Assembly: GCF_018417635.1 (NCBI RefSeq) | Contig: NZ_CP071007.1 | Location: 3,472,501 to 3,536,500, forward strand | Source: Pseudomonas sp. SORT22 | GTDB taxonomy: Bacteria > Pseudomonadota > Gammaproteobacteria > Pseudomonadales > Pseudomonadaceae | DNA: 64,000 nucleotides | Reading direction: 5' to 3' | Shown: one piece after another, positions 1-50,800 of the stretch | How positions within the stretch are numbered: position 1 is the first letter of the stretch | Layout: every line of letters begins with the position of its first letter | Position numbers and translations under genes: made by a program | Notes under the pieces: model-generated | Seen by the model: the letters and a program-made list of their open reading frames with translations, nothing else | The model's database searches: none | What the model was told of the DNA's origin: nothing

Positions 1-421
1 GATCACCGGCCCCGAGCGCCGCGGCCTGCTGCACTGCGTGCTGGATGTGCCCGGGCAGCGCGAGGTGCATGCCATTTGCGTGCACCTGTCACTGCTCGAA
101 AGCCACCGGCAACAGCAGTTGCAACTGCTGCGCAAGCTGCTCGACTCGCTGCCTGGCGATGCCCCGGTGATCATCGCCGGCGACTTCAACGACTGGAAAC
201 TGCGCGGCAACCGCACCCTCAACCTGCACCGCGACCTGCACGAAGCCTTCGAGCGTCATCACGGCCTGCTTGCCCGCACCTATCCGGCGCGCTTGCCGCT
301 GCTGCGCCTGGACCGCATCTACCTGCGCAACGCCCACAGCCATGCCCCGCAAATTCTCGGCAACAAGCCCTGGAGCCACCTCTCCGATCACCTGCCATTG
401 GCCGTGGAAGTGCAGCTTTAG
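1..421 (+). CDS. Endonuclease/exonuclease/phosphatase family protein (3' part only)
   Basis: The reading frame is already open at base 2, so the 5' end lies outside the window. About 139 C-terminal residues are seen. They carry the family signatures: GDFND (Asp/Asn of the DNase I-like active site) in the middle and SDHLPLAVEV near the end, where SDH supplies the catalytic Asp/His. The fold covers Mg2+-dependent phosphodiesterases. The short segment resembles YbhP-type proteins, often found next to a cardiolipin synthase, but that neighbour is not visible. Substrate unknown. Confidence 0.85.
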   Translation, partial: ITGPERRGLLHCVLDVPGQREVHAICVHLSLLESHRQQQLQLLRKLLDSLPGDAPVIIAGDFNDWKLRGNRTLNLHRDLHEAFERHHGLLARTYPARLPLLRLDRIYLRNAHSHAPQILGNKPWSHLSDHLPLAVEVQL

Positions 422-732: not shown

Positions 733-1803
733 ATGAAAAAAACTCCGAATCCTGCGGGCTTTGAGTATGTTTTCTATGCGGTTTCCACGTCGCTGCTACT
801 GGCAACCCCGTTGGAAACCCATGCATTGGGCCTGGAGGATAACGACCCGTTCAACAACCTGGTACAGGCCCAACCTGCACTTTCGCTCAACCCGGTCAGC
901 GCCAGCGGCCTGGGCCTGAGCACCCTCGGTGCGTTTTCCGAACGCCTGGCCGAACGCCATGCGCCAGCACCGAACGACAGCATCGCCAGCCAGTGGGCGC
1001 AGTTTTTCCCGACTGCAGTGCGCACCTCAAGCCCAGAGGCCGACAACCTCGCCACGCCGAACCAGAGCCTGCAAATCAGCCCTGATCTGTTCGTTCGTGA
1101 AACCGGCGGCGGCAATACTCACCGCGCCGGTTTCTTTGTCGGCCACAGCAACCTGCAAAGCGGTTTCGACGGCCTGCGCAAACCCCAGGTCGGCAACAAA
1201 GAGAGCGTGCTCAACCTCGACGGGCAAAGCCTGGGTGTGTACTGGAGCATGACCCACGACCAGGGCTGGCACCTGGATGCGGTGGCCATGGGCACGCGCT
1301 TTGATATCAATGGCCGCAGCGAGAGCGGCCAGCGCCTGGATGGCAACGGCCACGCCCTGACCCTCTCGGTCGAGGGCGGCTACCCGATCAGCCTGGGCAA
1401 CAACTGGACCCTGGAACCGCAAGCACAGTTGATCAACCAGCAGTACTTTCCTGGCAGCCAGACCCAGACCGACACCCAGCAAGCCTTTGACCAGCAGCCC
1501 AACTGGACCGGCCGGGTCGGTGCCAAATTGTCGGCGCGCTACAACGTGCGCGGCATGCCGATCGAGCCGTTCGTGCGCACCAACGTCTGGTACGACTTCT
1601 CCAATGCCGACACCGTGAGCCTGGACAAGGTCGACAAGATCAGCAGCGGGCGCAACTCCGCCACCGTCGAACTGGGCTTGGGCCTGGTGGCGCGGGTCAC
1701 GCCGAAAGTGGCGCTGTTTGTCAGCGCCGACTACAGCAGCGATGTCGATGACAATGACCTCAACGGCCTGATCGGCAACCTCGGTGTCAGGGTGCGCTGG
1801 TGA
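733..1803 (+). CDS. Small autotransporter-barrel outer-membrane protein
   Basis: The protein has 356 residues. Residues 1-32 look like a signal peptide with a likely cut after THA. A short segment of roughly 85-90 residues follows, and from about residue 117 the sequence shows alternating polar/hydrophobic beta-strands ending in VRVRW, the aromatic terminus typical of autotransporter barrels recognised by the BAM machinery. The passenger is far shorter than in classical adhesins or esterases and has no visible catalytic motif, so the protein may simply be an outer-membrane barrel. AGGAG lies 7 bases before the ATG. It stands alone, convergent with glgB. Confidence 0.75.
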   Translation: MKKTPNPAGFEYVFYAVSTSLLLATPLETHALGLEDNDPFNNLVQAQPALSLNPVSASGLGLSTLGAFSERLAERHAPAPNDSIASQWAQFFPTAVRTSSPEADNLATPNQSLQISPDLFVRETGGGNTHRAGFFVGHSNLQSGFDGLRKPQVGNKESVLNLDGQSLGVYWSMTHDQGWHLDAVAMGTRFDINGRSESGQRLDGNGHALTLSVEGGYPISLGNNWTLEPQAQLINQQYFPGSQTQTDTQQAFDQQPNWTGRVGAKLSARYNVRGMPIEPFVRTNVWYDFSNADTVSLDKVDKISSGRNSATVELGLGLVARVTPKVALFVSADYSSDVDDNDLNGLIGNLGVRVRW

Positions 1804-1818
1804 TGCGAGCGCTGGCCA

Positions 1819-4029
1819 TCACTGCGGCCGCAGGATCAACACCCCCAGCGGCGGCAGGTTGAGCCGCAACGACAGCGGCTGGCCATGGCTGGGCTGGGCC
1901 TGACTGGCCACCTCGCCAAGGTTGCCGTAGTTGGAGCCGGCATAGCCCTCGGCGTCGCTGTTGAACACCTCGGCCCAGCGCTCGCCAAACGGCACGCCGA
2001 TGCGATAGCCCTCGCGCGGCACCGGGGTGAAGTTGGCCACCACCAGCAACGGCTCGCCGTTCACGCTCCAGCGCAGCCAGGCATACACACTGTTGTGCGC
2101 GTCATCGCCGATCAACCATTGAAAGCCTTGCGGCACGCAGTCCTGTTCGTGCAGCGCACGCTCGTCGCGGTACAAACGGTTGAGGTCGCTGACCAGCCGT
2201 TGCACACCCAGATGCTCGGGGTACTTGAGCAGGTACCAGTCCAGTTCGCTGTCGTGGTTCCACTCGCGCCACTGGCCGAACTCACAGCCCATGAACAACA
2301 GTTTTTTGCCCGGATGGGTCCACATGAAGGTCAGGTAGGCGCGCAGGTTGGCGAACTTCTGCCAGCGATCGCCAGGCATCTTGTCGATCAGAGAGTGCTT
2401 GCCGTGCACCACCTCGTCATGGGAGATCGGCAGGATGAAATGTTCGGAATAGGCGTAGATCAGGCCGAAGCTCATTTCGTTGTGGTGATAGGTGCGGTGG
2501 ATCGGGTCGTTCTGGATGTAATGCAGGGTGTCGTGCATCCAGCCCATGTTCCACTTGTAGGCAAAGCCCAAACCGCCCTGCTGGGTTGGCTGGCTGACGC
2601 CTGGCCAGGCCGTGGACTCCTCGGCAATCACCAGGGCGCCGGGGGCCTCCAGGGCCACCACGTCGTTGAGGTGACGCAAAAAGTCGATGGCTTCGAGGTT
2701 CTCGCGCCCGCCATGGCGATTCGGCACCCACTCGCCGGCCTTGCGCGAGTAGTCGCGGTAGAGCATCGAGGCCACGGCATCGACGCGCAGGCCGTCGATA
2801 TGAAAATGCTTGAGCCAGTGCAGCGCCGAGGCCAGCATGAAGCCGTGCACTTCGGTGCGCCCAAGGTTGTAGATCAGCGTGTCCCAGTCCTGGTGGAAGC
2901 CCTCCAGCGGGTTGTCGTACTCGTACAGCGCGGTGCCGTCGAAGCGCGCCAGGCCGTGGGTGTCGGTGGGGAAATGCGCCGGCACCCAGTCGAGGATCAC
3001 GCCGATCTGCGCCTGGTGGCAGGCGTCGATGAAGGCGGCAAAGTCTTCGGCACTGCCGTAGCGCGCGGTCGGCGCGAACATCGACAGTGGCTGGTAACCC
3101 CAGGAGCCGCCAAACGGATGCTCCATGATCGGCATCAGCTCGATATGGGTAAAGCCCAGCTGCTGGATATAGGGCACCAGGCGCTCGGCCAGCTCGCGCC
3201 AGTTGTAAAAGCGCGCCACTTCGCCATTGTCGTCCAGCTCACATTGCCAGGAGCCGGCGTGTAATTCGTAGATCGACAGCGGCGCGCTGCTGGCCTGGCG
3301 TTCACCGCGCTGCTGCATCCAGTCCTGGTCTTGCCAGTCATGGGCCAGGGGGCCGGCGACCCTTGAGGCGGTGCTCGGCGGCAACTCGGTGGCGCGGGCC
3401 AGCGGGTCGGCCTTGAGCGGCAGGATGCCGTCGCGCCCGAGCACTTCGTATTTGTACGCTTCGCCGGCCCGCAGGCGCGGCACAAACAGTTCCCAGACCC
3501 CGGACGGATGGCGCAGGCGCATGGGGTGACGGCGGCCGTCCCAGTTGTTGAAATCACCCACCACCGAGACCCGCCGGGCGTTCGGTGCCCACACCGAAAA
3601 GCGCACGCCATCGACACCTTCGACATTCAGCGGTTGCGCGCCCATCGCCGCCGCAAGATCACGGTGATTGCCCTCGGCAAACAGGTACAGGTCCATGTCG
3701 CCGAGCAACGGCCCGAAGCTGTAGGGGTCTTCGGTGATCTGCTCGCCGCCGGCCCAGTTGATCTGCAACAGGTACGGCTGCGATTCGCGCAGATGAGTGA
3801 TGAACAACCCCGGTACCGGGCCCTGCTCCAGCTCTGCCAGCACGCGACTGTCGTCACGGGCCAGCACCCGTACGTTCAGAGCGTTGGGCAGGTAGGCGCG
3901 GACAAACTGGCCACCGGCACCATCCGGGTGCGGACCGAGCACCGCGAACGGGTCGGTATGTTCGGCTCTTACCAGGGCATCGATATCGCGCTGCCCCAGT
4001 CCTCCTTCCTCGCGCTTGCGTTGCGTCAT
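1819..4029 (-). CDS. glgB: 1,4-alpha-glucan branching enzyme GlgB
   Basis: The protein has 736 residues, close to the E. coli enzyme (728). The N-terminal CBM48/isoamylase-like part (about 20-220) is followed by a GH13 barrel with DWVPAH at 347-352, nucleophile Asp417 in DGLRVDAV, acid/base Glu470 and HD at 537-538 in ISHDEV. It transfers cleaved alpha-1,4 chains to form alpha-1,6 branches. It is the last gene of the minus-strand operon glgE-treS/mak-glgB and begins directly after the treS stop codon, which suggests coupled translation. Together with GlgE it turns maltose-1-phosphate into branched glucan. Confidence 0.97.
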
Positions 4030-7000
4030 TTACTGCTCTCCCCAGGTACTGATCAGACCATGCAGGCCATGCAAAGGCACGGCCAGCCAATGCGGACGGT
4101 TCTCGGCTTCGTAGAGGATTTCGTAGGCGACTTTCTCGAGGCTGAACAACGCCAGCGCCGCCTGCTCGCCGTCAGCCTGCTGCCAGGCATGGGGCATGGC
4201 CGCGGTGGCCAGCCCATAGGCCTCGACAAAAGCATGCCGGGCCTGGTGCAGGTAACGGCGGGCGACGCGCTGACGCGCCTGACGGGCAGCCTCGCAAAGG
4301 TCGACAGCAGAAGCACTGCGCAGCACCATCGCTGCAGCATAGTCGAATGAACGCAGCACGCCGCTGACATCCTTGTACGGGCTGTGCCTGGCCCGCCGCT
4401 CATCCAGCGGTCGCGCCGGTTCGCCTTCGAAATCGATCAGGTAGGCATCGCCCTGCACCACCAGCACCTGGCCCAGGTGCAAGTCGCCATGTACACGCAT
4501 CAACAGCCCGCCGACCGCCTGTTTGCTCAGTTCGGCTATGTGCTTGAGCAGGCTCTTGCGTTGCTGTTGCAGGTCGTCGACCAGGGCCTGGCTGGCGCTG
4601 TCGAGGCTGGCGCGATGTGCTTGCAGCAGGTCCAGGGCGCGGCTCAGCTGGGCGCTGATGTGCTTGTTCCAGGCCTGGCTGTCGCGGCTGCTGCTGGCCC
4701 GCGGCTGGAACGCCGGATCGGCGCTGGGCGCCGCCAGCAGCAGGTGCATCTCGCCCAGGCGCTGGCCGAGCAAGGCGGCAAAATCGGCAAGGTCCTGCAG
4801 GGCATCGGTGTGCACGTCCTGATCGTTGCTCGATGGCTCCATCTCGTCGCGGATGGCCCGTTCGAGGTTGTTCTGGGTCCAGTCCCAGGCGTCGCCCTGA
4901 TTGCTCAGGTAGCCCTGGGCGATCATCAGCAGGTGCGGTTGCGCCTTAGCGTCGACGCGGCTGACCCAGGCCAGCAGCGGCGAGATATTGGCAAAGCCTG
5001 CGGCCGTCAGGTAGGCGCTCATTTCCAGCTCGGGGTGCACCCCGGGGTTGACCCGGCGGATCAGCTTGAGCACCAGGCTGCCACCGACCACCACCGAACT
5101 GTTGGACTGCTCGGCGCTCAGGTAGCGCACTTGCGCGTCGTCGCCCAGGTTCAATGCCGCCAGTTGTTCTGTGGCGGTAAAACGCAGCTCGCCCTCGCTG
5201 CACGGCAAGCGCAAGCCGTCCTTGCAGCCGGCCAATACCGCGCGCACGAAGCTCTCAAGCACGAAGCCATCGGTGATCAGCCCCACCTGGCGGCCGCGGC
5301 GCACCCGCGCCAGGGCCAGTTGCTGCGGCGCCGGGCTGTTGATGTTTTCTTCGCCGATCAGGCCGAACGGCAGTTGATAGCGGCTGCTCTGGCCGCCGCC
5401 CTGCACGTCGATCTCGCTGAGCAGCACCGGGCTGGTGGTGTCGCCAAAACGCACGCCGTAGGCGATCTGCACCTGTTCGATGCGGCTTTCCTTGCCGGCA
5501 AACCAGCGGCGCTTGGGCAGGTACTGGGGCAGGATGCTGTCTTGCAAAGTGGCCCGCGACGGCGCTTCAAGCAGCTCTTCCATGCGCTTTTTCAGCACCA
5601 GTGTGGTGAACTCCGGCAGGCTCTGGGCCGGCTCCATGTGCCAGCTGGGCATCTGGTCCTTGTCAGCGAGCAGGAACCAGTAAAAGCCGTAAGGCGGCAA
5701 GGTCAGCAGAAACGGCAACTGGCCGATCGGCGGGAAGGCACTGCCGCCGAGCATCTCCACCGGCACCTTGTCGGCGTACTGCTGCAGCTCAAGCTCAGCC
5801 GCCTGTGCGGCGCGCGAGACGTTGGCCACGCAGAGGATGATCTCGGCCTTGCCGTCGCTGCCGGTGTACTCGCGGATGTAGGCGAGAATCCGCCGGTTGC
5901 TCGGCGTGAGCATCTTCAGTGCGCCGCGGCCGAAGGCTTTTTGCTGCTTGCGCACCGCCAGCAGGCGGCGGTTCCAGTTCAATAGCGAATGCGGGTCGTG
6001 GGCCTGGGCCTCGACGTTGACCGACTGGAAACCGTACAGCGGGTCCATGATCGGCGGCAGCACCAGGCGCGCCGGGTCGGCGCGCGAGAACCCGCCGTTG
6101 CGGTCGATCGACCACTGCATCGGCGTGCGCACGCCATCGCGGTCGCCCAGGTAGATGTTGTCGCCCATGCCGATTTCGTCGCCGTAGTACAGGGTCGGCG
6201 TGCCGGGCATCGACAGCAGCAGGCTGCACAAAAGCTCGACCCGGCGCCGGTCGCGCTGCAGCAGCGGCGCCAGGCGCCGGCGAATGCCGAGGTTGATCCG
6301 CGCCCGGCGATCCTCGGCGTAGTAGTTCCACAAGTAGTCGCGCTCGCGGTCGGTGACCATCTCCAGGGTCAGCTCATCGTGGTTGCGCAAGAAGATCGCC
6401 CATTGGCAGTTGGCCGGGATCTCCGGGGTCTGACGCAGGATGTCGGTGATCGGAAAGCGGTCTTCCTGGGCCACGGCCATGTACATGCGCGGCATCAGCG
6501 GGAAGTGAAAAGCCATGTGGCATTCATCGCCCTGCCCTTCGCCAAAGTACAACTGGGTGTCTTCCGGCCACTGGTTGGCCTCGGCCAGGAGCATGCGGTC
6601 GGGGTAGTTGGCATCGATCTCGGCGCGGATCTTTTTCAGCACCTGGTGGGTTTCGGGCAGGTTCTCGTTGTTGGTGCCGTCGCGCTCGATCAGGTAAGGG
6701 ATGGCGTCCAGGCGCAGGCCGTCGACGCCCAGGTCGAGCCAGTAGCGCATGACCCCGAGCACCGCCTTGAGCACCTGCGGGTTGTCGAAATTGAGGTCCG
6801 GCTGGTGCGAGTAGAAGCGGTGCCAGAAGTATTGGCCGGCCACCGGGTCCCAGGTCCAGTTGGATTTCTCGGTGTCGAGGAAGATGATCCGCGTGCCGTC
6901 GTACTTCTGGTCGCTGTCGGACCACACGTAAAAGTCCCGGGCCTTGCTCCCCGGCTTGGCGCGCCGGGCTTTCTGGAACCACGGATGCTGGTCGGAGGTG

Positions 7001-7341
7001 TGGTTGATGACAAGTTCGGTTATCACCCGCAGGCCGCGCTTGTGGGCCTCGGCAATGAAGCGTTTTACGTCAGCCAGGGTGCCGTAGTCGGGGTGCACTG
7101 CCTTGTACTCGGCGATGTCGTAGCCATCATCGCGCCGTGGCGAAGGGTAGAACGGCAGCAGCCACAGGGTGTTGACCCCAAGCTCGGCGATGTAGTCGAG
7201 CTTGGCGATCAGGCCGGGGAAGTCACCGATGCCGTCGTTGTTGGAATCAAAGAAGGATTTGACGTGTACCTGGTAGATGATCGCGTCCTTGTACCACAAC
7301 GGATCATCGATAAAGGCGGCTGGGCGGGCGCGCTTGGCCAT
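4030..7341 (-). CDS. treS: Trehalose synthase / maltokinase fusion (TreS-Mak)
   Basis: The fusion protein has 1103 residues. The N-terminal GH13 domain (about 1-550) carries Asp212 in DGLRLDAI, Glu254 in LLAEANQ and HD at 321-322, and interconverts trehalose and maltose. The C-terminal part (about 600-1103) has kinase motifs HGDLHLGQ at 951-958 and DFEGE at 970-974, typical of maltokinase (Pep2/Mak), which makes maltose-1-phosphate for GlgE. I chose the ATG at 7341 because AAAGGAG stands just upstream; the frame stays open 30 codons further, but that stretch lies inside glgE. Only 13 bases separate it from the glgE stop. Confidence 0.96.
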   Translation of the reverse strand: MAKRARPAAFIDDPLWYKDAIIYQVHVKSFFDSNNDGIGDFPGLIAKLDYIAELGVNTLWLLPFYPSPRRDDGYDIAEYKAVHPDYGTLADVKRFIAEAHKRGLRVITELVINHTSDQHPWFQKARRAKPGSKARDFYVWSDSDQKYDGTRIIFLDTEKSNWTWDPVAGQYFWHRFYSHQPDLNFDNPQVLKAVLGVMRYWLDLGVDGLRLDAIPYLIERDGTNNENLPETHQVLKKIRAEIDANYPDRMLLAEANQWPEDTQLYFGEGQGDECHMAFHFPLMPRMYMAVAQEDRFPITDILRQTPEIPANCQWAIFLRNHDELTLEMVTDRERDYLWNYYAEDRRARINLGIRRRLAPLLQRDRRRVELLCSLLLSMPGTPTLYYGDEIGMGDNIYLGDRDGVRTPMQWSIDRNGGFSRADPARLVLPPIMDPLYGFQSVNVEAQAHDPHSLLNWNRRLLAVRKQQKAFGRGALKMLTPSNRRILAYIREYTGSDGKAEIILCVANVSRAAQAAELELQQYADKVPVEMLGGSAFPPIGQLPFLLTLPPYGFYWFLLADKDQMPSWHMEPAQSLPEFTTLVLKKRMEELLEAPSRATLQDSILPQYLPKRRWFAGKESRIEQVQIAYGVRFGDTTSPVLLSEIDVQGGGQSSRYQLPFGLIGEENINSPAPQQLALARVRRGRQVGLITDGFVLESFVRAVLAGCKDGLRLPCSEGELRFTATEQLAALNLGDDAQVRYLSAEQSNSSVVVGGSLVLKLIRRVNPGVHPELEMSAYLTAAGFANISPLLAWVSRVDAKAQPHLLMIAQGYLSNQGDAWDWTQNNLERAIRDEMEPSSNDQDVHTDALQDLADFAALLGQRLGEMHLLLAAPSADPAFQPRASSSRDSQAWNKHISAQLSRALDLLQAHRASLDSASQALVDDLQQQRKSLLKHIAELSKQAVGGLLMRVHGDLHLGQVLVVQGDAYLIDFEGEPARPLDERRARHSPYKDVSGVLRSFDYAAAMVLRSASAVDLCEAARQARQRVARRYLHQARHAFVEAYGLATAAMPHAWQQADGEQAALALFSLEKVAYEILYEAENRPHWLAVPLHGLHGLISTWGEQ

Positions 7342-7354
7342 GCTCGACTCCTTT

Positions 7355-9379
7355 CTAGTGGGCTTTTTCGATACGCCAGACAGCGAACGGCAGGTGCCAG
7401 GGCTCGATGCGCATCCATTGGGTCTTGCCATGCCAGGTCCAGCGATGGCCGCTCATCAGGTCTTCGCCGAAGGTGTCGGCATGGTCGTCCAGGCCCAGCT
7501 CCCACAACGGCAGTTCGAAGTGCGCCTCCTGGGCGTTGTGCGGGTCGAGGCTGACGGCGATGAGGATGAAGTTGTCGCGCTCGGCAGTGCGTTTGCCGAA
7601 GTACAGGATGTTGTCGTTCCAGGCGTTATAGAAAGCCACGCCCAGGTGGGTGTGCAAGGCCGGATTCTGCCGGCGGATACGGTTGAGCTGGGCGATTTCG
7701 GCGATTATATTGCCTGGCTGGCTGAAGTCGCGCGGGCGGATCTGGTACTTCTCCGAATCCAGGTATTCCTCCTTGCCTGGCACCGGCGTCGCCTCGCACA
7801 GCTCGAACCCTGAGTACATGCCCCACAGGCCCGAGCCCATGGCCGCCAGCGCGGCGCGAATAAGGAAGCCGGCACGCCCCGATTCATGCAGAAAGTACGG
7901 GTTGATGTCCGGGGTATTGACGAAGTAGTTCGGCCGGTAGCAGTAGCACCACGGCGGCTGGTTGAGCTCCTCGAAGTAGCTTTGCAGCTCGGCCTTGGTG
8001 TTGCGCCAGGTGAAGTAGCTGTAGCTCTGGGAGTAACCGACCTTGCCCAGGCGCGCCATCATCGCAGGCTTGGTGAAGGCCTCGGCGAGGAAGATAACGT
8101 CCGGGTACTGGCTGCGCACATTGGCGATCAGCCAATGCCAGAACGGCAAGGGCTTGGTGTGCGGGTTGTCGACGCGAAAGGTCTTGACCCCCTCCTTGAC
8201 CCAGCCCACCACCACATCGCGCAGCGCCAGCCACAGGGCCGGTACCGAATCGGCGGCATAGAAGTCGACGTTGACGATGTCCTGGTACTTTTTCGGTGGG
8301 TTCTCGGCATAGCGGATGCTGCCGTCCGGGCGCCAGGAGAACCAGCCCGGGTGCTCCTTGAGCCAGGGGTGGTCCTGGGAACACTGAATGGCAAAATCCA
8401 GGGCGATTTCCAGGCCGTGCCCGGCGGCGGCGGCCACCAGCCGGCGAAAATCCTCGCGGCTGCCCAGTTGTGGGTGAATCGCCTCGTGCCCGCCCTCGGC
8501 GCCGCCAATCGCATAAGGGCTGCCGGGGTCACCGGGCTCGGCCTGCAAGGCATTGTTGCGGCCCTTGCGGTGGCGCACACCGATCGGGTGGATGGGCGGG
8601 AAGTACAGCACGTCAAAGCCCATGTCGCGGATCATCGGCAAGCGTTGGTGCACGTCATTGAAGGTACCGTGCCGTTCGGGGTCGTCGGTGACCGAGCGCG
8701 GAAACAGCTCGTACCAACTGGCGAACCGGGCCTGGATGCGTTCGACATCCAGCGGGTATTCAGGGCTGCGGCTGAGGTAGGTACGGTGCTCGGCCTCGGC
8801 CATCAGAACGGCGGTGTCCGGGTGCAGCAGCAAGGCCACCTGCTCGTCGACGGGCAAACCGGGCAGGTGCTGGTACAGGGCCTGCAGCTGGTCACGCAGG
8901 GGGCCGTTGCTGCGACCGATATTGTGCTCGATCTGCAGCAGCCCTTCCTGCAGCTCCAGGGGCACCGCGACGCCTGCGTTGAATTTCTTCTCCAGGTCGT
9001 GGCAATAGGTGGCGAACGGGTCGATCCAGGCCTCGATGCTGAACAGGTGGCGGCCCTGCTCGCTGACGGTGAACTCGGCCTGCCACAGGTCATTGCCGGC
9101 AAACTGCATCGGCACGCGGTGCCAGCGCCGGCTGTGGGCCTGGCGCCAGTTGAGCATCACTGCCAGGGCGTCATGACCGTCGGCGTAAACCTTGCTGCTG
9201 ACCTGCACCGGCTCAGCGACCACCGCCTTGACCGCAAACAGCCCGCCATCAAGCACCGGCACGGTGTTCTCGATCACGATCCGCGGTTCGAGCAGGGCCT
9301 GGGACAGGCTCAGGGCCTGGCCCGGGTGGTCGCTAGCCGCAGTCATACGGTCGGTTTCGAAGGGCTCATCGCGGGTCAT
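7355..9379 (-). CDS. glgE: Alpha-1,4-glucan:maltose-1-phosphate maltosyltransferase GlgE
   Basis: The protein has 674 residues. It has an N-terminal beta-sandwich, then the GH13_3 catalytic domain with nucleophile Asp404 in FRVDNPHTKPLPFW and acid/base Glu433 in FLAEAF. GlgE adds maltosyl units from maltose-1-phosphate to growing alpha-glucans. It is the promoter-proximal gene of the operon, with TreS-Mak making its substrate and GlgB branching its product. ATG 9379 was chosen, although MTAASD (11 residues downstream) is an alternative. No sugar-specific operator is evident in the 140 bases upstream. Confidence 0.96.
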   Translation of the reverse strand: MTRDEPFETDRMTAASDHPGQALSLSQALLEPRIVIENTVPVLDGGLFAVKAVVAEPVQVSSKVYADGHDALAVMLNWRQAHSRRWHRVPMQFAGNDLWQAEFTVSEQGRHLFSIEAWIDPFATYCHDLEKKFNAGVAVPLELQEGLLQIEHNIGRSNGPLRDQLQALYQHLPGLPVDEQVALLLHPDTAVLMAEAEHRTYLSRSPEYPLDVERIQARFASWYELFPRSVTDDPERHGTFNDVHQRLPMIRDMGFDVLYFPPIHPIGVRHRKGRNNALQAEPGDPGSPYAIGGAEGGHEAIHPQLGSREDFRRLVAAAAGHGLEIALDFAIQCSQDHPWLKEHPGWFSWRPDGSIRYAENPPKKYQDIVNVDFYAADSVPALWLALRDVVVGWVKEGVKTFRVDNPHTKPLPFWHWLIANVRSQYPDVIFLAEAFTKPAMMARLGKVGYSQSYSYFTWRNTKAELQSYFEELNQPPWCYCYRPNYFVNTPDINPYFLHESGRAGFLIRAALAAMGSGLWGMYSGFELCEATPVPGKEEYLDSEKYQIRPRDFSQPGNIIAEIAQLNRIRRQNPALHTHLGVAFYNAWNDNILYFGKRTAERDNFILIAVSLDPHNAQEAHFELPLWELGLDDHADTFGEDLMSGHRWTWHGKTQWMRIEPWHLPFAVWRIEKAH

Positions 9380-18642: not shown

Positions 18643-18671
18643 TTGACTTGCAAATGATAACGATTATTATT
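18643..18671 (+). promoter_or_regulatory. prrF promoter with overlapping Fur box
   Basis: TTGACT (18643-18648) and TATTAT (18665-18670) are spaced 16 bases apart as -35 and -10. GATAACGATTATTATT (18656-18671) matches the Fur consensus well and overlaps the -10, so iron-loaded Fur would block transcription. Confidence 0.85.
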
Positions 18672-40451: not shown

Positions 40452-40470
40452 TACACCGACCGCTCGCCCC

Positions 40471-40516
40471 CTGTGGCAGCCGGCCTTGCCGGCGATGGGG
40501 TGCGCAGCGGCCCCAC
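40471..40516. repeat. REP-like element between fusB and ligD
   Basis: CTGTGGCAGCCGGCCTTGCC and the following GGCGATGGGGTGCG contain the palindrome GCCGGCCTTGCCGGC (40479-40493), a short REP-type hairpin between two plus-strand genes. Confidence 0.5.
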
Positions 40517-40599
40517 CTCGAACAAAAGCCGATTGAACTCCCACCCCTGCCGCCCTATCCCAATGCTTAGGACCCGCCCAAAAGCCGCAGGACACCGCC

Positions 40600-43050
40600 A
40601 TGGCCAAGCCGTTGCAGGAGTACGCGCGCAAGCGCAATTTCGACGCTACCCCGGAGCCCGCAGGCCATCAGCGCAGCGGCAAAAAAACCGCCCACGCCCT
40701 GCAGTACTGCATCCAGAAACACGACGCCAGCCACCTGCACTATGACTTTCGCCTGGAGCTGGACGGCACCCTGAAAAGCTGGGCCATCCCCAAGGGCCCG
40801 TCGCTGGACCCCAAGGTCCGGCGCCTGGCCGTGCACGTCGAAGACCACCCGCTGGACTACGCCAGTTTCGAAGGCACCATCCCCGAAGGTCATTACGGTG
40901 CCGGTGATGTGATCGTCTGGGACCGTGGGGTATGGATTCCCGAAGAAGATCCACACAAGGCCTATGCCAAGGGCAAGCTGCGCTTTCGCCTGCAGGGCGA
41001 GAAACTCTCGGGCATCTGGAACCTGTTTCGCACTCACCTGGCCGGCAAGAAGGAGCAGTGGCTGCTGATCAAGTCCGACGATGCCCAGGCGCGCCCGCAG
41101 GCCGACTACGACATTCTCGAAGCCGAGCCGGACAGCGTGGTCAGCGAACGCACGCTGCCCACGCGCACACCCAAGGCAGACGGCAACAGCGAACTCGGCG
41201 GCGCGAAAAAAGCTGCCCTGCCCGCCTCGCTCAAGCCGCAACTGGCCACCCTGGTAGAGACGCCGCCCGAGGGCGACTGGCGCTACGAAGTCAAGTTCGA
41301 CGGCTACCGCATCCTCGCCCGCATCGAAGGTGACGAGGTGCGCCTGTTCACCCGCAACGGCCATGACTGGACCGCCAGGCTGCCCCGGCAAGCCAAGGCC
41401 CTGGCCAGGCTCGGCCTGCACTCGGCCTGGCTCGATGGCGAGATGGTGGTGGCCAACGAGCACGGCGTCGCGGATTTCCAGGCCCTGCAGAATGCCTTCG
41501 ACCAGCAACGCGACGAGCAGATCCTCTATTACCTGTTCGATGTGCCCTACCTCAACGGCATGGACCTGCGCCAGTGCCCGCTGGAGCAACGGCGTGCGGC
41601 GTTGGCAAAGGTGCTGGAAAAGGCCGATGAAAAGCGCCTGCGCTTTTCCGCCGACTTTGACCAGAGCGTCGAATCGCTGCTCGACAGCGCCTGCAAAATG
41701 CAGATGGAAGGCCTGATCGGCAAGCGCCTGGGCAGCAGCTACCTGAACCGGCGCAGCAGCGACTGGATCAAGCTCAAGTGCAAGCAGCGCCAGGAGTTCG
41801 TCATCGTCGGCTTTACCGAGCCCAAGGGCTCGCGCGAGGCCTTCGGCGCGCTGCTGCTGGCCCTGCATGATGACCGCGGCGAGCTGCGCTATGCCGGCAA
41901 GGTCGGCAGCGGGTTCAACAGCGCGACCCTGGCCCATATTCACCAGCGCCTCAAACCCCTCGAAGTGGCCAGGCCGCAGTTTGCCAAGCCGCCCAGCGGC
42001 GCCGAGGCCAAAGGTGTGCACTGGCTCAAGCCAAGGCTGCTGGCCGAGGTCGCCTATGCGCAGATGACCCGCGACGGCGTGGTCCGCCATTCGGTGTTCC
42101 ATGGCCTGCGCGACGACAAACCGGCCAAGGCCATTGGCCTGGAGCAACCCGTGAAAACCCCGGCAAGCAAAACGTCCAACCTGCACCTGACCCACCCCGA
42201 CCGCGTCATCGACGCCAGCACCGGCATCAGCAAGCGCCAGGTCGCCGAGTACTACGCCCAGGTCGCCGAGTGGATCCTGCCGCACCTCAAGCGCCGCCCG
42301 GTGGCGCTGGTGCGCGCACCCGATGGCCTGGCCGGCGAGCTGTTCTTCCAGAAGAACGCCGCGCAATTGAACATCCCGGGCCTTGAAAGCCACGCCAAGG
42401 CCGAAGCCGGCCAGGCGCTGATGATCATCGACCAGGCCCGGACCCTGCTCGGCGCGGTGCAGATGAACACCCTCGAGCTGCACACCTGGAACGCCACCGC
42501 CAAGGATTTCGACAGGCCCGACCGCCTGATCCTCGACCTCGACCCCGACCCGGCGCTGCCGTGGAAGGCCATGCTCGAAGCCACCCAGCTGACCCTTGCA
42601 TTGCTCGACGAACTGGGCTTGCAAGCGTTCCTCAAGACCAGCGGCGGCAAGGGCATGCACATTGTCGTGCCGCTGACCCGGCGCGCCGGCTGGGACGAGG
42701 TCAAAGGCTTCAGCCAGGCCATGGTCCAGCACCTGGCCGGGCTGTTCCCCGAGCGCCTGTCGGCGGTGTCCGGACCGAAGAACCGGGTCGGGCGGATCTT
42801 CATCGACTACCTGCGCAACGGTAAAGGCGCGACCACGGTTTGCGCCTATTCGATCCGCGCCCGCGAAGGGCTGCCGGTGTCGGTGCCGATTCGCCGTGAA
42901 GAGCTGACCGAGCTTAAAGGCGCGAACCAGTGGAACCTGCTCAACCTCGGCGAACGCCTGGCCGCTGGCGATGACCCTTGGGCCGGGTATGGCCAGGTAC
43001 GCCAGTCGATCAGCAAGGAACTGCGCCGGCGCATGGGGGTTGAGTCATGA
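40600..43050 (+). CDS. ligD: Multifunctional DNA ligase D (NHEJ)
   Basis: The protein has 816 residues with three domains. The 3'-phosphoesterase (1-165) keeps His41, His47, Asp49, Arg51 and His83, as in the P. aeruginosa enzyme shifted by one. The ATP-dependent ligase (215-520) has adenylated Lys232 in KFDGYR. The polymerase/primase (545-816) has Asp646 and Asp648 in LDLDPD. LigD seals Ku-bound DNA ends in non-homologous end joining. It overlaps the next gene by 4 bases, joining repair to a biosynthetic-looking cassette; ku lies about 7 kb downstream on the other strand. Confidence 0.96.
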   Translation: MAKPLQEYARKRNFDATPEPAGHQRSGKKTAHALQYCIQKHDASHLHYDFRLELDGTLKSWAIPKGPSLDPKVRRLAVHVEDHPLDYASFEGTIPEGHYGAGDVIVWDRGVWIPEEDPHKAYAKGKLRFRLQGEKLSGIWNLFRTHLAGKKEQWLLIKSDDAQARPQADYDILEAEPDSVVSERTLPTRTPKADGNSELGGAKKAALPASLKPQLATLVETPPEGDWRYEVKFDGYRILARIEGDEVRLFTRNGHDWTARLPRQAKALARLGLHSAWLDGEMVVANEHGVADFQALQNAFDQQRDEQILYYLFDVPYLNGMDLRQCPLEQRRAALAKVLEKADEKRLRFSADFDQSVESLLDSACKMQMEGLIGKRLGSSYLNRRSSDWIKLKCKQRQEFVIVGFTEPKGSREAFGALLLALHDDRGELRYAGKVGSGFNSATLAHIHQRLKPLEVARPQFAKPPSGAEAKGVHWLKPRLLAEVAYAQMTRDGVVRHSVFHGLRDDKPAKAIGLEQPVKTPASKTSNLHLTHPDRVIDASTGISKRQVAEYYAQVAEWILPHLKRRPVALVRAPDGLAGELFFQKNAAQLNIPGLESHAKAEAGQALMIIDQARTLLGAVQMNTLELHTWNATAKDFDRPDRLILDLDPDPALPWKAMLEATQLTLALLDELGLQAFLKTSGGKGMHIVVPLTRRAGWDEVKGFSQAMVQHLAGLFPERLSAVSGPKNRVGRIFIDYLRNGKGATTVCAYSIRAREGLPVSVPIRREELTELKGANQWNLLNLGERLAAGDDPWAGYGQVRQSISKELRRRMGVES

Positions 43051-44060
43051 ACCACCTGGAGCTGTTACAGACCTTCGCCCGTCGCCCGCAGGCGCTGACC
43101 CTCGACCGCCAGTTGCAACGCTGCCTGGAACAATGCCGGGAGACCGGTCTCGACCAACTGCCGCTGCCCGGCCATGGCCGCACCCTGCAGCGTTGGCAGG
43201 TACTGGCCGAGGTCGCCGGGGCTGATCTGGCCCTGGCCAAGCTGTTCGAGGGCCACACCGACGCCCTGGCGATCATCCATGAGTGCGCCGCCAGCCATCT
43301 GGACCCGGCGGGCAGTTGGGGGGTATGGGCAGCCGAGCCGCCGAATGCGCGGGTGCGTATCGTCCGTCGCACCGGCAACGACGTGCACCTGCAAGGCCGC
43401 AAGGCCTGGTGCTCCGGCGCCCTGCAGATCGACCGGGCGCTGCTCACCGCCTGGGACGAACAAGACCGTCCGCAACTGGTGGCGGTGGCCTTGAACCAAC
43501 CGGCGCTGCGCATCTTCAATGACGGCTGGCAGGCGGTCGGCATGGCCATTACCGCCAGCGTCGATGTCGAGTTCAACGACTGCCCGGCGCACCTGGTCGG
43601 CAGCAGCGGCCAGTACCTGTCGCGACCGGGCTTCTGGCACGGTGGCGCTGGCATCGCTGCCTGCTGGTACGGCGCGGCGCAAACCCTGGGCGAGTTTTTG
43701 CTCGAACACTGCCGCAGCCATGAAGACGCCCACGCCCAGGCGCATCTGGGTGCAGTCGACGCTGCGCTTGCCGGTGCCCGGGCGGCCTTGCACGAAGCCG
43801 CGGCGTGGATCGACGGCCATCCCGGCAGCGATGCCGAGCTGAGCGTCCGGCGCCTGCGCGCGCAGGTCGAAAACGCCGCGCTGTGTGTGCTCGATCACGT
43901 CGGCCGGGCCCTGGGCGCGACGCCGTTCTGTCGCGACAGCCAGTTTGCCCGGCTCAGCGCCGACCTGCCGGTGTTCCTGCGCCAGAGCCATGCCGAGCGC
44001 GACCTGGCCGAGCTGGGCCGGCAAGTGCGTGCAACCCCCGAGGGAGGCTGGCGGCTATGA
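43047..44060 (+). CDS. Acyl-CoA-dehydrogenase-like flavoprotein of the ligD-linked cassette
   Basis: The protein has 337 residues, about 40 fewer than ordinary acyl-CoA dehydrogenases. The N-terminal helical part, the central beta domain with SWGVWAAEPPNARVRIVRR and LQGRKAWCSGAL, and the C-terminal helical part are recognisable. The usual GGxGY segment and catalytic Glu context are not seen, so activity on acyl-CoA is uncertain. It starts inside the ligD stop (ATGA) and overlaps the next gene the same way, so it is translated with them. Confidence 0.75.
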   Translation: MNHLELLQTFARRPQALTLDRQLQRCLEQCRETGLDQLPLPGHGRTLQRWQVLAEVAGADLALAKLFEGHTDALAIIHECAASHLDPAGSWGVWAAEPPNARVRIVRRTGNDVHLQGRKAWCSGALQIDRALLTAWDEQDRPQLVAVALNQPALRIFNDGWQAVGMAITASVDVEFNDCPAHLVGSSGQYLSRPGFWHGGAGIAACWYGAAQTLGEFLLEHCRSHEDAHAQAHLGAVDAALAGARAALHEAAAWIDGHPGSDAELSVRRLRAQVENAALCVLDHVGRALGATPFCRDSQFARLSADLPVFLRQSHAERDLAELGRQVRATPEGGWRL

Positions 44061-44821
44061 CCCTGCAACCACCGCAAAACCCGATCCAGGCGCCGGGCAC
44101 ACCGCTGGCGCACTGGCAAGCGTCGGCGATCCTGCAGTCGGTGCCGGCAATTACCCATGACCAGTTGGTACCCGTTGGCAGGCGCCTGGTGGTGGTCGCC
44201 CCGCACCCGGACGACGAAGTGCTCGGCTGCGGCGGCGTGCTGGCTGGCATGCGTGGCCGTGAACACGAGTTGCTGCTGGTCTCGGTCAGCGACGGTGAGG
44301 CCAGCCACCCCGATTCGCGCCACTGGACCAGCGAACGCCTGCGCCAGCAACGCCCACGAGAAAGCGCCGATGCCCTGCGCCGCCTCGGGCTGGACCTGAG
44401 CCGCCTGAGCTGGCTGCGCCTGGGCCTGGCCGACAGCGCCGTGGCCAACCATGAACGCTGGCTGGCCGAACGCCTGGTGCAGCTACTGCGCGCCAGCGAC
44501 CGGGTGCTGACCACCTGGCGCCTGGACGGCCACTGCGACCATGAAGCAGTAGGCCGCGCTTGCGCCCGCGCCTGCGACACGGTCGGTGCGCGCTTGATCG
44601 AAGTGCCGATCTGGGCCTGGCACTGGGCCCGCCCCAGCGACCCGCGGCTGCCCTGGCAGCGCGCCCACAAGCTGTTTCTCGACCGCGCGGTGCTGGCCCT
44701 CAAGCAACAGGCCATCGCCGCCCATACCAGCCAGTTGCAGGCCGACGAGCAGACCCCGCCGGTGCTTGACCGCGAGGCCCTGGCCCGCCTGCAGCAACCC
44801 TTCGAACTGGTGTTCACATGA
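44057..44821 (+). CDS. PIG-L (LmbE-type) deacetylase
   Basis: The protein has 254 residues. APHPDDEVLGCGG is the zinc-binding His/Asp-Asp signature and DGHCDHEAVG carries the second His ligand. PIG-L enzymes remove N-acetyl groups from GlcNAc-type sugars, as in mycothiol, bacillithiol, GPI anchors and antibiotics. No signal peptide. Between a flavoprotein and a methyltransferase, with a GT2 gene behind, it suggests modification of an amino-sugar conjugate. Confidence 0.9.
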   Translation: MTLQPPQNPIQAPGTPLAHWQASAILQSVPAITHDQLVPVGRRLVVVAPHPDDEVLGCGGVLAGMRGREHELLLVSVSDGEASHPDSRHWTSERLRQQRPRESADALRRLGLDLSRLSWLRLGLADSAVANHERWLAERLVQLLRASDRVLTTWRLDGHCDHEAVGRACARACDTVGARLIEVPIWAWHWARPSDPRLPWQRAHKLFLDRAVLALKQQAIAAHTSQLQADEQTPPVLDREALARLQQPFELVFT

Positions 44822-45417
44822 GCGTCTCGGCCAGCTACTTCGAGCACCTGTTCGCGCACAGCGACGACCCCTGGGCGTTTCGCACCCGCTGGTACGAAAA
44901 ACGCAAGCGCGAGCTGCTGCTGGCCAGCCTGCCGCGCCAGTACTACGGCCGCGTATTCGAGCCGGCCTGCGCCAATGGCGAACTCAGCGCCGCCCTCGCC
45001 GAGCGCTGCGAAAGCCTTTTGTGCCAGGACCTCAACGCCACCGCCGTGCAACTGGCCGCTGAACGCCTGCGGCCATGGCCCAACGCCGAGGTCATGCAAG
45101 GCTGCCTGCCTGGCGACTGGCCGGCCGGCGAGTTCGAGCTGATCGTGCTCAGCGAGATCGGCTACTACCTGGACCCCGGCCAGTGGCTGGAAGTACTGGA
45201 GCGCGCCACGGCCAGCCTGACCTCTGACGGCGCCCTGCTGCTGTGCCACTGGTTGCACCCGATCGACGGCTGCCCGCAAACCGGCCACCAGGTCCATGAA
45301 CTGCTGGCGGAGCGCTTGCCGTTGTACCGCAGCCTGCAGCACGAAGAGGCCGACTTTGTTCTTGAATACTGGTGCCTCCAGCCTTATGCCATCGACCTTG
45401 ACGAGCCCTGCCTATGA
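44818..45417 (+). CDS. SAM-dependent methyltransferase (NodS-like)
   Basis: The protein has 199 residues. Class I fold: motif I VFEPACANGELSAAL, an acidic loop end (LCQDLN) and IVLSEIGYYL after beta-4. The start DPWAFRTRWYEKRKR and overall pattern resemble NodS, which methylates the free amine of a deacetylated chitooligosaccharide. In this cassette it may act on the amine uncovered by the PIG-L deacetylase. It overlaps both neighbours by 4 bases. Confidence 0.85.
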   Translation: MSVSASYFEHLFAHSDDPWAFRTRWYEKRKRELLLASLPRQYYGRVFEPACANGELSAALAERCESLLCQDLNATAVQLAAERLRPWPNAEVMQGCLPGDWPAGEFELIVLSEIGYYLDPGQWLEVLERATASLTSDGALLLCHWLHPIDGCPQTGHQVHELLAERLPLYRSLQHEEADFVLEYWCLQPYAIDLDEPCL

Positions 45418-46073
45418 TTGCCGTGATTGTCCCCGCGCATAACGAAGAACTACTGCTCGGCCGCTGCCTGCGCGCCCTTGGCCGTGCCGCGCGTACGGTG
45501 TCGGCGCTGGGTGAAGAGGTGCAGATTGTGGTGGTTTTGGACAGCTGCTGCGATGCCAGCGAGGCCGTCGCCCGCGCCCATGGCGTGGAGCTGCTCAAGG
45601 TCCAGGCGCGCAATGTCGGCCAGGCGCGCCGCGCCGGTGCGGCGTTGATGCTCGAGCGTGGCGCACGCTGGCTGGCCTTCACCGATGCCGACAGCTGCGT
45701 CCCGGCCGACTGGCTGTTGTGCCAGTTGGCCTTTGCCGCCGATGCGGTGTGCGGCACGGTGCATGTCGAGACCTGGCAAGCCCACCAGGATGCGGCGCTG
45801 CGCGAACGCTACCTGGCCCATTACCAGGCCCGCGAAGGCCACCGGCACATACACGGCGCCAACCTCGGCATCTGCGCCCGCGCCTACGAAAAGGTCGGGG
45901 GGTTCCAGCCATTGCCGCTGCACGAGGATGTGCAACTGGTCAACGACCTGCAGCAAAGCGGCGCACATATCGTCTGGACCGCGCGCAACAGCGTGTCGAC
46001 CAGCAGCCGCAAGGACTGCCGGGTGCGCGGCGGCTTCGGGGATTTTCTCAACAACCTGAACGGCCTGGCCTGA
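45414..46073 (+). CDS. Family 2 glycosyltransferase
   Basis: The protein has 219 residues, a minimal GT-A fold. IAVIVPAHNEELLLGRCL starts the nucleotide-sugar domain, FTDADSC gives the DxD-like metal site, and PLHEDVQLVNDL the later acidic motif. No membrane segments, so it is cytosolic or peripheral. It is the last gene of the ligD-coupled cassette and probably transfers an amino sugar to a lipid or small-molecule acceptor that the deacetylase and methyltransferase then modify. Confidence 0.88.
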   Translation: MIAVIVPAHNEELLLGRCLRALGRAARTVSALGEEVQIVVVLDSCCDASEAVARAHGVELLKVQARNVGQARRAGAALMLERGARWLAFTDADSCVPADWLLCQLAFAADAVCGTVHVETWQAHQDAALRERYLAHYQAREGHRHIHGANLGICARAYEKVGGFQPLPLHEDVQLVNDLQQSGAHIVWTARNSVSTSSRKDCRVRGGFGDFLNNLNGLA

Positions 46074-46185
46074 ACAGAGAAACCTGTTAACCGTCCGCCG
46101 CACTTTTTCACAAATGCCCTCAAGTTAATCATCAGCGCGGTTCTTATGATCAGGCCTGCTTGATCAACCACGAGGGAGAAACACC

Positions 46186-49939: not shown

Positions 49940-50800
49940 TCAGGCCTTCTTGCGCGGCTTGCTGCCGGCAGGCTTTTTCGCCGCTGGCGCGGCTTTCTTC
50001 GCCGCCGGTTTGCGCCCGCCCAGGCTGCGTTTGAGCAGCTCGGTAAGGTCGATGATATCGGCGCTTTTCTGCTCGCCTTCGCCTTCCAGCGGCTCGACCG
50101 TGGCGATCTTGCCCTGGCTGGCCTTCTCTTCGACCAGGCTCATGATGGTGTCCTTGAAGTCGTTGCGGTATTCCTCCGGCGTCCAGTGCCCGCTCATGTC
50201 CTCGACCAGGCGCCTGGCCATTTGCAGCTCACGCTTGTCGATGCTCGAGTCGCGCACGCTGGCGTCCAGTTCCAGGCTGTCGAGGCCGCGCACTTCCTCG
50301 GGCCAGCGCAGGGTAATCATCACCATCGCGTCCTCCAGCGGGCGCAGCAGCGCCAGGTGCTGCTGGGTGTGCAGCACCACCTTGGCCAGGGCCACCTTGC
50401 CGGTGCTCTGCAAGGTTCCGCGCAGCAAGGCATAAACCTTGCCACCACGCCGGTCGGGGCTCAGGTAATACGGGGTGTCGAACTGCTGCAGGGGGATTTC
50501 GTCGCTGTCGACAAACGAGAAGATATCGATGGTCTGGGTCGCCTCGGGGCGGGCCTTGCGGATCTCCTCCTCGCTGATCACCACGTATTGGCCTTTCTGG
50601 TATTGCACGCCCTTGACGATGTGCTCGCGGGCGATCTCCTTGCCGGTGACTTTGTTCACCCGCTTGTAGCCCACCGGTTCCATGCTGCGCTCATCGAGCC
50701 AGTCGAAATCGACCCGGTCGCTGCTGATCGCAGTACTCAACGACACCGGGATGTGCACCAGGCCGAAGCTGATGGCACCTTTCCAGATGGCTCTGGCCAT
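49940..50800 (-). CDS. ku: NHEJ DNA end-binding protein Ku
   Basis: The protein has 286 residues. It begins MARAIWKGAISFGLVHIPV, the typical bacterial Ku start, followed by the beta-barrel core and a Lys/Ala/Pro-rich tail (about 255-286) that binds DNA nonspecifically. Ku dimers encircle broken ends and recruit LigD. I chose ATG 50800, after GGGAG; an upstream extension of about 98 codons runs into the next gene's promoter and is not typical Ku sequence. Confidence 0.95.
   Translation of the reverse strand: MARAIWKGAISFGLVHIPVSLSTAISSDRVDFDWLDERSMEPVGYKRVNKVTGKEIAREHIVKGVQYQKGQYVVISEEEIRKARPEATQTIDIFSFVDSDEIPLQQFDTPYYLSPDRRGGKVYALLRGTLQSTGKVALAKVVLHTQQHLALLRPLEDAMVMITLRWPEEVRGLDSLELDASVRDSSIDKRELQMARRLVEDMSGHWTPEEYRNDFKDTIMSLVEEKASQGKIATVEPLEGEGEQKSADIIDLTELLKRSLGGRKPAAKKAAPAAKKPAGSKPRKKA

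Follow-up and report, generated by a model that had tools for sequence, protein, structure and literature searches.

The 64,000-nucleotide stretch of Pseudomonas sp. SORT22 analysed here (the window; contig NZ_CP071007.1, positions 3,472,501 to 3,536,500), from a genome of 5.8 Mb held in a single contig, carries the non-homologous end joining (NHEJ) ligase gene ligD and, directly behind it, four genes named here acad, pigL, mt and gt2, which together are called the cassette (Table 1). The five open reading frames and the ATGA overlap of four bases at all four of their junctions were found just as the original prediction, made from the sequence without database searches, had described them. Pfam searches of the window proteins recognised the phosphoesterase, ligase and Prim-Pol domains of LigD, and PIG-L (5e-26), NodS (1.6e-9; 38.4 bits, cut-off 24) and GT2 (1.4e-12) in the last three cassette proteins; the acad protein matched the acyl-CoA dehydrogenase (ACAD) family below threshold (22.6 bits, cut-off 33.3). 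The ku gene lies 3.9 kb past gt2 on the other strand, with AmpC-like, LysR, MFS and SnoaL-like genes intervening (LysR and MFS were named by eye). Scans of positions 40300-46300 were uninformative, with no promoter-like site found for sigma-70 and one terminator-like site found on the opposite strand.

Table 1. Coordinates of the cassette, its surroundings and related features; positions are those of the window unless a locus is named.
Feature	Position	Strand	Basis
ligD, DNA ligase D (3'-phosphoesterase, ligase, primase-polymerase)	40600..43050	+	Pfam; TIGR02776, 742 bits
acad, ACAD-fold protein, closest to DszC-type flavin monooxygenases; cassette gene 1	43047..44060	+	profile and fold searches
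pigL, PIG-L/LmbE-type deacetylase, H50/D53/H162 conserved	44057..44821	+	Pfam, alignment
mt, NodS-like class I S-adenosylmethionine (SAM) methyltransferase; own-family crystal structure 4isc	44818..45417	+	Pfam, structure-sequence match
gt2, family-2 glycosyltransferase, D91-x-D93 and E171-D172 conserved	45414..46073	+	Pfam, alignment, fold search
ATGA overlap ligD/acad	43047..43050	+	sequence
ATGA overlap acad/pigL	44057..44060	+	sequence
ATGA overlap pigL/mt	44818..44821	+	sequence
ATGA overlap mt/gt2	45414..45417	+	sequence
ku, convergent with cassette	49940..50797	-	Pfam/NCBIfam
EEP-family gene, 3' part, directly after glgX; cassette lies between glgX and it in most glgX-type relatives, not here	1..418	+	
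trehalose/alpha-glucan locus, remainder	733..9379	.	
autotransporter	733-1803	+	match
glgB	1819-4029	-	match
treS	4030-7431	-	named by eye
glgE	7355-9379	-	named by eye
pigL2 (second PIG-L)	L025 10477-11259		
pigL2	L029 9502-10338		
pigL2	L031 9654-10547		
pigL2	L032 9497-10285		
extended Deinococcus ACAD	L153 6696-9035		
extended Deinococcus ACAD	L165 7696-10044		
extended Deinococcus ACAD	L228 4789-7152		

As judged from sequence and modelled fold, the acad protein is kin to the DszC-type (class D) flavin monooxygenases. Its profile matched the solved structures of DszC (1.3e-16), TdsC (1e-14) and the methanesulfinate monooxygenase MsuC (4e-13) best, followed at 8e-13 by two chains under the name acyl-CoA dehydrogenase type 2, of which one appears as a flavin-containing monooxygenase among the fold matches, with the first clear dehydrogenase at 1.7e-10 and amino-sugar nitrososynthases from 5e-9 down. 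Foldseek, run with a confident structure model (predicted local distance difference test, pLDDT, 94.5), returned a putative acyl-CoA dehydrogenase at rank 1 and TdsC, DszC, MsuC, 5z8t and XiaF, which we take to be a hydroxylase, at ranks 2-20. As VIA-align scored dehydrogenases and monooxygenases alike against the model, fold alone does not decide between these activities. In an alignment of 42 rows, 16 columns were invariant, with a single acidic residue among them (E68) that lies outside the C-terminal domain, where acyl-CoA dehydrogenases have their catalytic glutamate; E275 was nearly invariant, and the loop before the last helix holds the invariant pair R312-Q313. Certain relatives did score above the ACAD cut-offs, that of locus L026 for the middle domain (34.3 bits) and those of Bradyrhizobium and Deinococcus radiodurans for the N-terminal domain. 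No reductase gene lies inside the cassette.

The PIG-L protein of the window reads HPDDE, and H50, D53 and H162 were invariant in 32 rows, four of which (pigL2) read HPGDE; we take the HPDDE motif and the distal histidine to be the zinc site. Its nearest solved relatives were TT1542 and the chitobiose, BshB1 and MshB deacetylases. The nearest solved structures to mt were 4isc, from its own family, and then NodS (3ofj, 2.6e-17). The gt2 protein, 219 residues forming a compact single domain in the model, keeps D91, D93, E171 and D172, and its fold matches were general GT-A enzymes that indicate no substrate, largely polysaccharide, teichoic-acid and protein transferases (WrtF, TarP, TarS, GalNAc-T). 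These families do suggest chemistry of the amino-sugar type, as had been proposed from the sequence, and sugar transfer, deacetylation, N-methylation and oxidation in series would be its simplest reading.

Where this cassette resides was compared across the genus. In a first survey, PIG-L was found in 22 of 38 genomes, all of the window's genus, and the 20-kb neighbourhoods of 20 of the other 21 showed two main arrangements, behind ligD or behind malQ-treY-DUF2934-glgX (families checked), with loci L029-L032 holding only a second PIG-L behind glgX. Separate searches of 159 same-genus genomes with the ACAD profile, ligD and glgX found ACAD in 100, of which 71 carried it directly behind glgX in the trehalose operon, 5 at 13-18 kb from glgX, 20 directly behind ligD, 4 elsewhere and none behind both glgX and ligD (one of the four 'elsewhere' genomes, G057, locus L061, has a 210-codon ligD-like reading frame just upstream). 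The match was single in 99 of the 100 genomes and consisted of two abutting pieces in the remaining one. ACAD was thus away from ligD in 80 of the 100 genomes, at least 72 of which hold ligD elsewhere, and the expectation that the cassette would stay with ligD or ku in related genomes failed: within the genus the cassette has two established placements, of which the ligD link is the less common. A ligD match was found in 96/100 ACAD-bearing and 28/59 ACAD-less genomes (read off per-genome match tables), and a glgX match in 100/100 and 43/59, both comparisons being uncorrected for shared ancestry.

The ligD arrangement is nevertheless not confined to a few strains. Among named loci (the best 80 of 560, with a bias to loci of the window's type), 34 were linked to ligD, 33 to glgX and 13 to other genes, and 28 of the 34 ligD-linked loci had an opposite-strand ku within the fetched stretch. 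Carriers of the ligD type include P. putida, P. entomophila, P. soli, P. capeferrum and P. gingeri, and those of the glgX type P. viridiflava, P. mandelii, P. orientalis and some P. fluorescens isolates. The order ligD-acad-pigL-mt-gt2 with a convergent ku at its end, which the original prediction had attributed to P. putida KT2440, was seen in two other named P. putida strains (L073 and L090), whereas ku stands four genes further on in the window. A protein search with the ACAD profile gave 6716 hits among 7998 scored; the 120 listed among these were 55-93% identical to the window protein and, where the organism was named, came from Pseudomonas.

The site behind glgX is unoccupied in the window genome. 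Relatives of the glgX type have the same gene order with the cassette inserted between glgX and the EEP-family gene. Here treZ-malQ-treY-DUF2934-glgX lies just left of the window, the EEP match begins 13 bp past the glgX match, and the autotransporter and glgB follow; no match to the cassette genes was found between glgX and EEP in this trehalose operon. The genome therefore has a trehalose locus without the cassette, and the cassette 43 kb away behind ligD.

Spacings were surveyed in 128 loci with distinct ACADs, with script-chosen start codons, so that single spacings can be off. The mt and gt2 genes were spaced at exactly -4 in 91/97 loci and pigL and mt in 90/120, and acad overlapped pigL in 116/119; the ligD-acad spacing was exactly -4 in only 7/43 loci and ranged from -4 to 674 bp, and the glgX-acad junction was tight in 41/42 loci (21 overlapping, 20 separated by 0-30 bp). 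Coupling among the four inner genes belongs to the cassette itself; the overlap with ligD is found in a minority of ligD-type strains. Joint function had been read from the coupling of all five genes; the four-gene cassette proved real and conserved, but the functional tie to ligD is only partly supported, ACAD lying away from it in 80 genomes. Completeness also varies. Loci L068, L071 and L093 have ligD-acad-mt-gt2 without pigL in place; L068 comes from genome G003, which carries a pigL relative at another locus (L018). G007, the closest relative sampled, shows the opposite: behind its ligD (L013), acad, mt, gt2 and the neighbouring AmpC-like gene are all absent, and pigL alone is retained, intact and 94% identical (L013 10080-11060). 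The PIG-L enzyme may thus also serve independently of the other three.

A quick ACAD tree of 77 rows (27 ligD, 23 glgX, 27 other), covering about half of the named loci and excluding L052-L060, placed all glgX-linked rows on one side of a single branch (SH-like approximate likelihood ratio test, SH-aLRT, 97). The ligD label needed 5 changes on this tree and all context labels together 6; as the root was not inferred, the tree does not decide which of the two sites is the older. In another genus of the family (L033, L034), ku, ligD and the cassette form a single run, which in L033 converges on EEP-glgX-treY-malQ, so both partners can share one locus.

Beyond Pseudomonas, ACAD was detected in 33/397 genomes (21/231 genera) of a phylum sample, in 6/377 genomes of a class sample and in 12/120 genomes of the order of G306, which is probably alphaproteobacterial; the last two counts in particular make its distribution patchy. 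At the thresholds used, 54 loci outside the genus had a methyltransferase in 52 cases, PIG-L in 43 and a relative of the window GT2 in 29, with ACAD standing alone in L159. ACAD relatives accompanied by deacetylase and methyltransferase occur in beta- and alphaproteobacteria, Deinococcus, Nostoc, Kitasatospora and Acinetobacter plasmids. A plasmid search with a first ACAD gave 52 records, including 13 of Sulfitobacter and 8 of Deinococcus besides Paracoccus, Novosphingobium, Sphingomonas, Methylobacterium, Komagataeibacter, Sphingobium, Nostoc, Bradyrhizobium and others, and a search with a second ACAD gave 29 (Acinetobacter 19, Cupriavidus 3, Pandoraea 2, Comamonas 2, and Kitasatospora, Streptomyces and Embleya); those of Streptomyces, Embleya and Comamonas, and most other plasmid records, are known as ACAD matches only. 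The plasmids were typed as mobilizable or conjugative in 11/52 and 21/29 records, respectively.

Gene orders were read at a number of these loci. Nostoc (with an opposite glycosyltransferase) and Kitasatospora have acad-pigL-mt, and Bradyrhizobium L156 has acad-pigL-mt, an opposite glycosyltransferase, DUF72, a ligase, Ku, ligD and rpoH; ku and ligD also lie near the cassette in L053, probably alphaproteobacterial. Catalase genes stand near the core in Novosphingobium L157 (catalase, three transferases, acad-pigL-mt, transferase), in Sulfitobacter (acad-pigL-mt-glycosyltransferase-catalase), in Paracoccus L163 (7 kb from acad-pigL-mt-glycosyltransferase), on plasmids of Acinetobacter haemolyticus and A. 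towneri (catalase, cassette, MFS, otsA-otsB) and on a Cupriavidus plasmid (GlgE, opposite-strand pigL and catalase, then acad-mt-glycosyltransferase). Two Pandoraea plasmids have CsbD-family genes and no annotated catalase, and the Komagataeibacter, Roseomonas and Sphingobium loci had none of the tested neighbour genes. Four Deinococcus loci were read: that of D. radiodurans encodes a 779-residue ACAD and has a helicase gene between pigL and mt, and UDP-galactopyranose mutase was among the neighbours in two Deinococcus plasmids.

Recurrence of neighbours outside the genus was tested on the 54 loci, which comprise 28 of the phylum sample, 13 added later and 13 on plasmids that we picked from the 52 records; some stretches were shorter than 20 kb. 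The controls were 47 arbitrary 20-kb stretches at positions of our choosing in the genomes of test loci: 23 of the first 28 genomes contributed 40 of them, 7 of the later 13 contributed 7, and none came from plasmids. Rows of one genus (L033/L034; L037/L039/L040) are not independent, and the NHEJ references include genes of test locus L156. Catalase was found in 14/54 cassette stretches and 0/47 controls (P=6e-5), and in 6/26 versus 0/47 (P=0.0014) when the count was limited to loci fetched after the catalase references had been set; any tested gene was found in 25/54 versus 4/47 (P=2e-5). An earlier run of the first 28 loci against 40 controls agreed with this. Not counted among the 54 are seven annotated plasmid loci that were read later and one unannotated locus; an annotated catalase was present in 3 of the seven (two Acinetobacter, one Cupriavidus). 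With catalase enriched and trehalose genes not (4/54 versus 4/47; P=0.72), catalase is the recurrent neighbour across taxa and trehalose a partner within Pseudomonas, and membership in a trehalose pathway is rejected as a general rule. Nor does the cassette regularly lie next to ligD or ku: it was adjacent to ligD in 20/100 genomes of the genus, and ku or ligD was near it in 4/54 loci outside.

The cassette resembles several known systems in part. In the front end of mycothiol and bacillithiol synthesis (MshA-MshB, BshA-BshB), a glycosyltransferase and a deacetylase make a stress-protective amino-sugar glycoside, and the cassette likewise has a PIG-L-type deacetylase, BshB1 and MshB being among its solved relatives. 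MshA and BshA are of the GT4 class, whereas the cassette transferase matched Glycos_transf_2 and related models only; no cysteine ligase is among the four genes, a methyltransferase and an ACAD-fold protein are added, and pigL scored 43.2 and 36.5 bits against the BshB1 and BshB2 equivalog cut-offs of 182.5 and 195.25. The Nod-factor enzymes NodB, NodC and NodS deacetylate, transfer and N-methylate sugars in series. The cassette mt is a NodS relative, though far below the NodS equivalog cut-off (46.2 bits, cut-off 300), but the cassette deacetylase is PIG-L rather than NodB, chitin synthase and acyltransferase are lacking, and no NodB or NodC model was among the families listed for the cassette proteins. 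DszC, TdsC and MsuC, nearest to acad by sequence, share about 20% identity with it; acad is some 50-65 residues shorter and has the invariant R312-Q313 near its C-terminus. KijD3 and DnmZ, nitrososynthases that oxidise amino sugars, were weaker matches. The Pseudomonas treZ-malQ-treY-glgX operon is the physical host of the cassette in 71/100 genomes and has no sequence relation to it.

In passages of two reports, the genes of the trehalose operon are named up to glgX (for P. syringae in PMC8982409, and also in PMC8084333), and the cassette families find no mention in the passages of these two or of PMC7083833. According to parts of PMC8084333, trehalose confers osmotic tolerance on P. aeruginosa and GlgE glucan, not trehalose, confers desiccation tolerance, and water stress is said to induce both operons in P. 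putida KT2440; in Sphingopyxis, the general stress regulon is described in a passage of PMC7083833 as including ku-ligD and catalases. No description of the cassette was found in the titles and abstract openings of the papers listed by searches of open-licence PubMed Central literature.

We favour the reading, with a probability of about 0.6, that the four genes form a self-contained biosynthetic cassette, spread by horizontal transfer, that belongs to the stress equipment of the cell (stationary-phase, osmotic, oxidative or desiccation stress) and not to the NHEJ machinery. Its observed basis is the gene order, the existence of two alternative sites, the vacancy behind glgX in the window genome, the wide distribution and the catalase genes that recur nearby. 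As for the order of the reactions and their substrates, the GT2 enzyme would transfer an N-acetylated amino sugar to a small acceptor molecule, the PIG-L protein would take off the acetyl group, the NodS-like methyltransferase would methylate the freed amine and the ACAD-fold flavoprotein, acting as a monooxygenase and not as a dehydrogenase, would oxidise the amino sugar. The soluble product would serve as an intracellular protectant. Having no fixed partner, the cassette would ride behind whichever stress-expressed gene it had joined, one lineage of Pseudomonas having it behind glgX and others behind ligD. On a bolder version, which we put forward tentatively and at somewhat less than even odds, the genes would encode a pathway so far undescribed, whose N-methylated, flavin-oxidised amino-sugar glycoside would protect many bacteria in the dry or stationary state, the cassette having moved between phyla, partly by plasmid (Pseudomonas, Burkholderiales, Acinetobacter, alphaproteobacteria, Deinococcus, Nostoc, Kitasatospora), and docked at trehalose, catalase or NHEJ loci. 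Several results weigh against the stress-cassette reading. Outside Pseudomonas, neither the trehalose/glucan genes as a whole nor otsA (3/54 versus 1/47 controls; P=0.36) nor genes of the sucrose-synthase type (3/54 versus 0/47; P=0.15) were enriched, the enrichment of ku or ligD was weak (4/54 versus 0/47; P=0.08), and the loci without pigL lowered our confidence slightly.

That the cassette instead modifies a surface or exported polysaccharide, lipopolysaccharide core or glycolipid, rather than making a free small molecule, is unlikely, even with the polysaccharide, teichoic-acid and protein transferases that dominate the gt2 fold matches, the three further glycosyltransferases in one run in Novosphingobium L157 and Paracoccus L163 and the mutase neighbours in Deinococcus; no recurrent flippase, polymerase or export gene was noticed with the core, though no systematic search for these was made, and the transferase itself is small and compact. 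We consider it distinctly unlikely that the link to ligD is neutral, a transferable cassette having settled behind an expressed gene and been kept by descent with no shared role. Six context changes suffice on the ACAD tree, the relatives travel on mobilizable or conjugative plasmids and G007 has lost part of the cassette, all of which fit such a history, but the recurrence of catalase beyond the controls and the retention of intra-cassette overlaps over wide divergence do not.

A function shared with NHEJ appears distinctly unlikely as well; on this view DNA ends would be acted on, protected or signalled to by the product or enzymes of the cassette, a role mirrored in the coupling to ligD. 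Its case consists of the ATGA overlap of ligD and acad in the window, the ligD-linked share of the (biased) named list with its many convergent ku genes, the ku or ligD genes near the cassette in L033, L034, L053 and Bradyrhizobium L156, and the excess of ligD in ACAD-bearing genomes, which glgX displays likewise. Against these stand the 80 genomes with ACAD away from ligD, most of them with ligD elsewhere, the rarity of the exact ligD overlap and the weak NHEJ enrichment outside the genus. A tie to double-strand break repair was accordingly rejected as the leading account, on the strength of those 80 genomes, and kept as a rival. General stress survival is a better match to the wider pattern than repair as such.

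Research on drying, oxidation and starvation treats trehalose, glucan, catalase and NHEJ as independent responses. If the stress-cassette reading holds, a portable gene set that repeatedly attaches to such loci, in bacteria as distant as Pseudomonas, Deinococcus and Nostoc, suggests an overlooked stress-survival metabolite. As the cassette lies directly downstream of ligD or glgX, mutants polar on it in studies of these genes could be scored as NHEJ or trehalose phenotypes.

Several further features were seen at these loci. L229 and L235, on mobilizable Acinetobacter plasmids, hold catalase, the cassette and otsAB within 15 kb, as a movable stress-survival island. In L017, L064, L065 and L067, gt2 stands 3.3-3.5 kb upstream of acad and 13-15 kb from glgX, with an Nramp-type gene lying between in L064. 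The second PIG-L gene of glgX-type genomes, pigL2, follows the cassette or stands alone behind glgX; its HPGDE, compared with the HPDDE of the cassette PIG-L, replaces by glycine a residue that we take to be the catalytic base. In three of the four Deinococcus loci, L158 being without it, ACAD has an extra N-terminal part of about 400-430 residues. This extension did not match transferase cluster c18, and the one of the three that was searched had no solved relative; a glycosyl-hydrolase-53 match was sub-threshold and suggestive only (E 0.014 in one and 0.022 in another of the three). A family-1 glycosyl hydrolase gene lies upstream of ACAD in L228. In the window, a PrrF RNA is found at position 18643, which together with the named relatives marks the genome as Pseudomonas, and a complete elongation factor G gene (38346-40451) adjoins ligD upstream, the same neighbour being present in L013 and L076.

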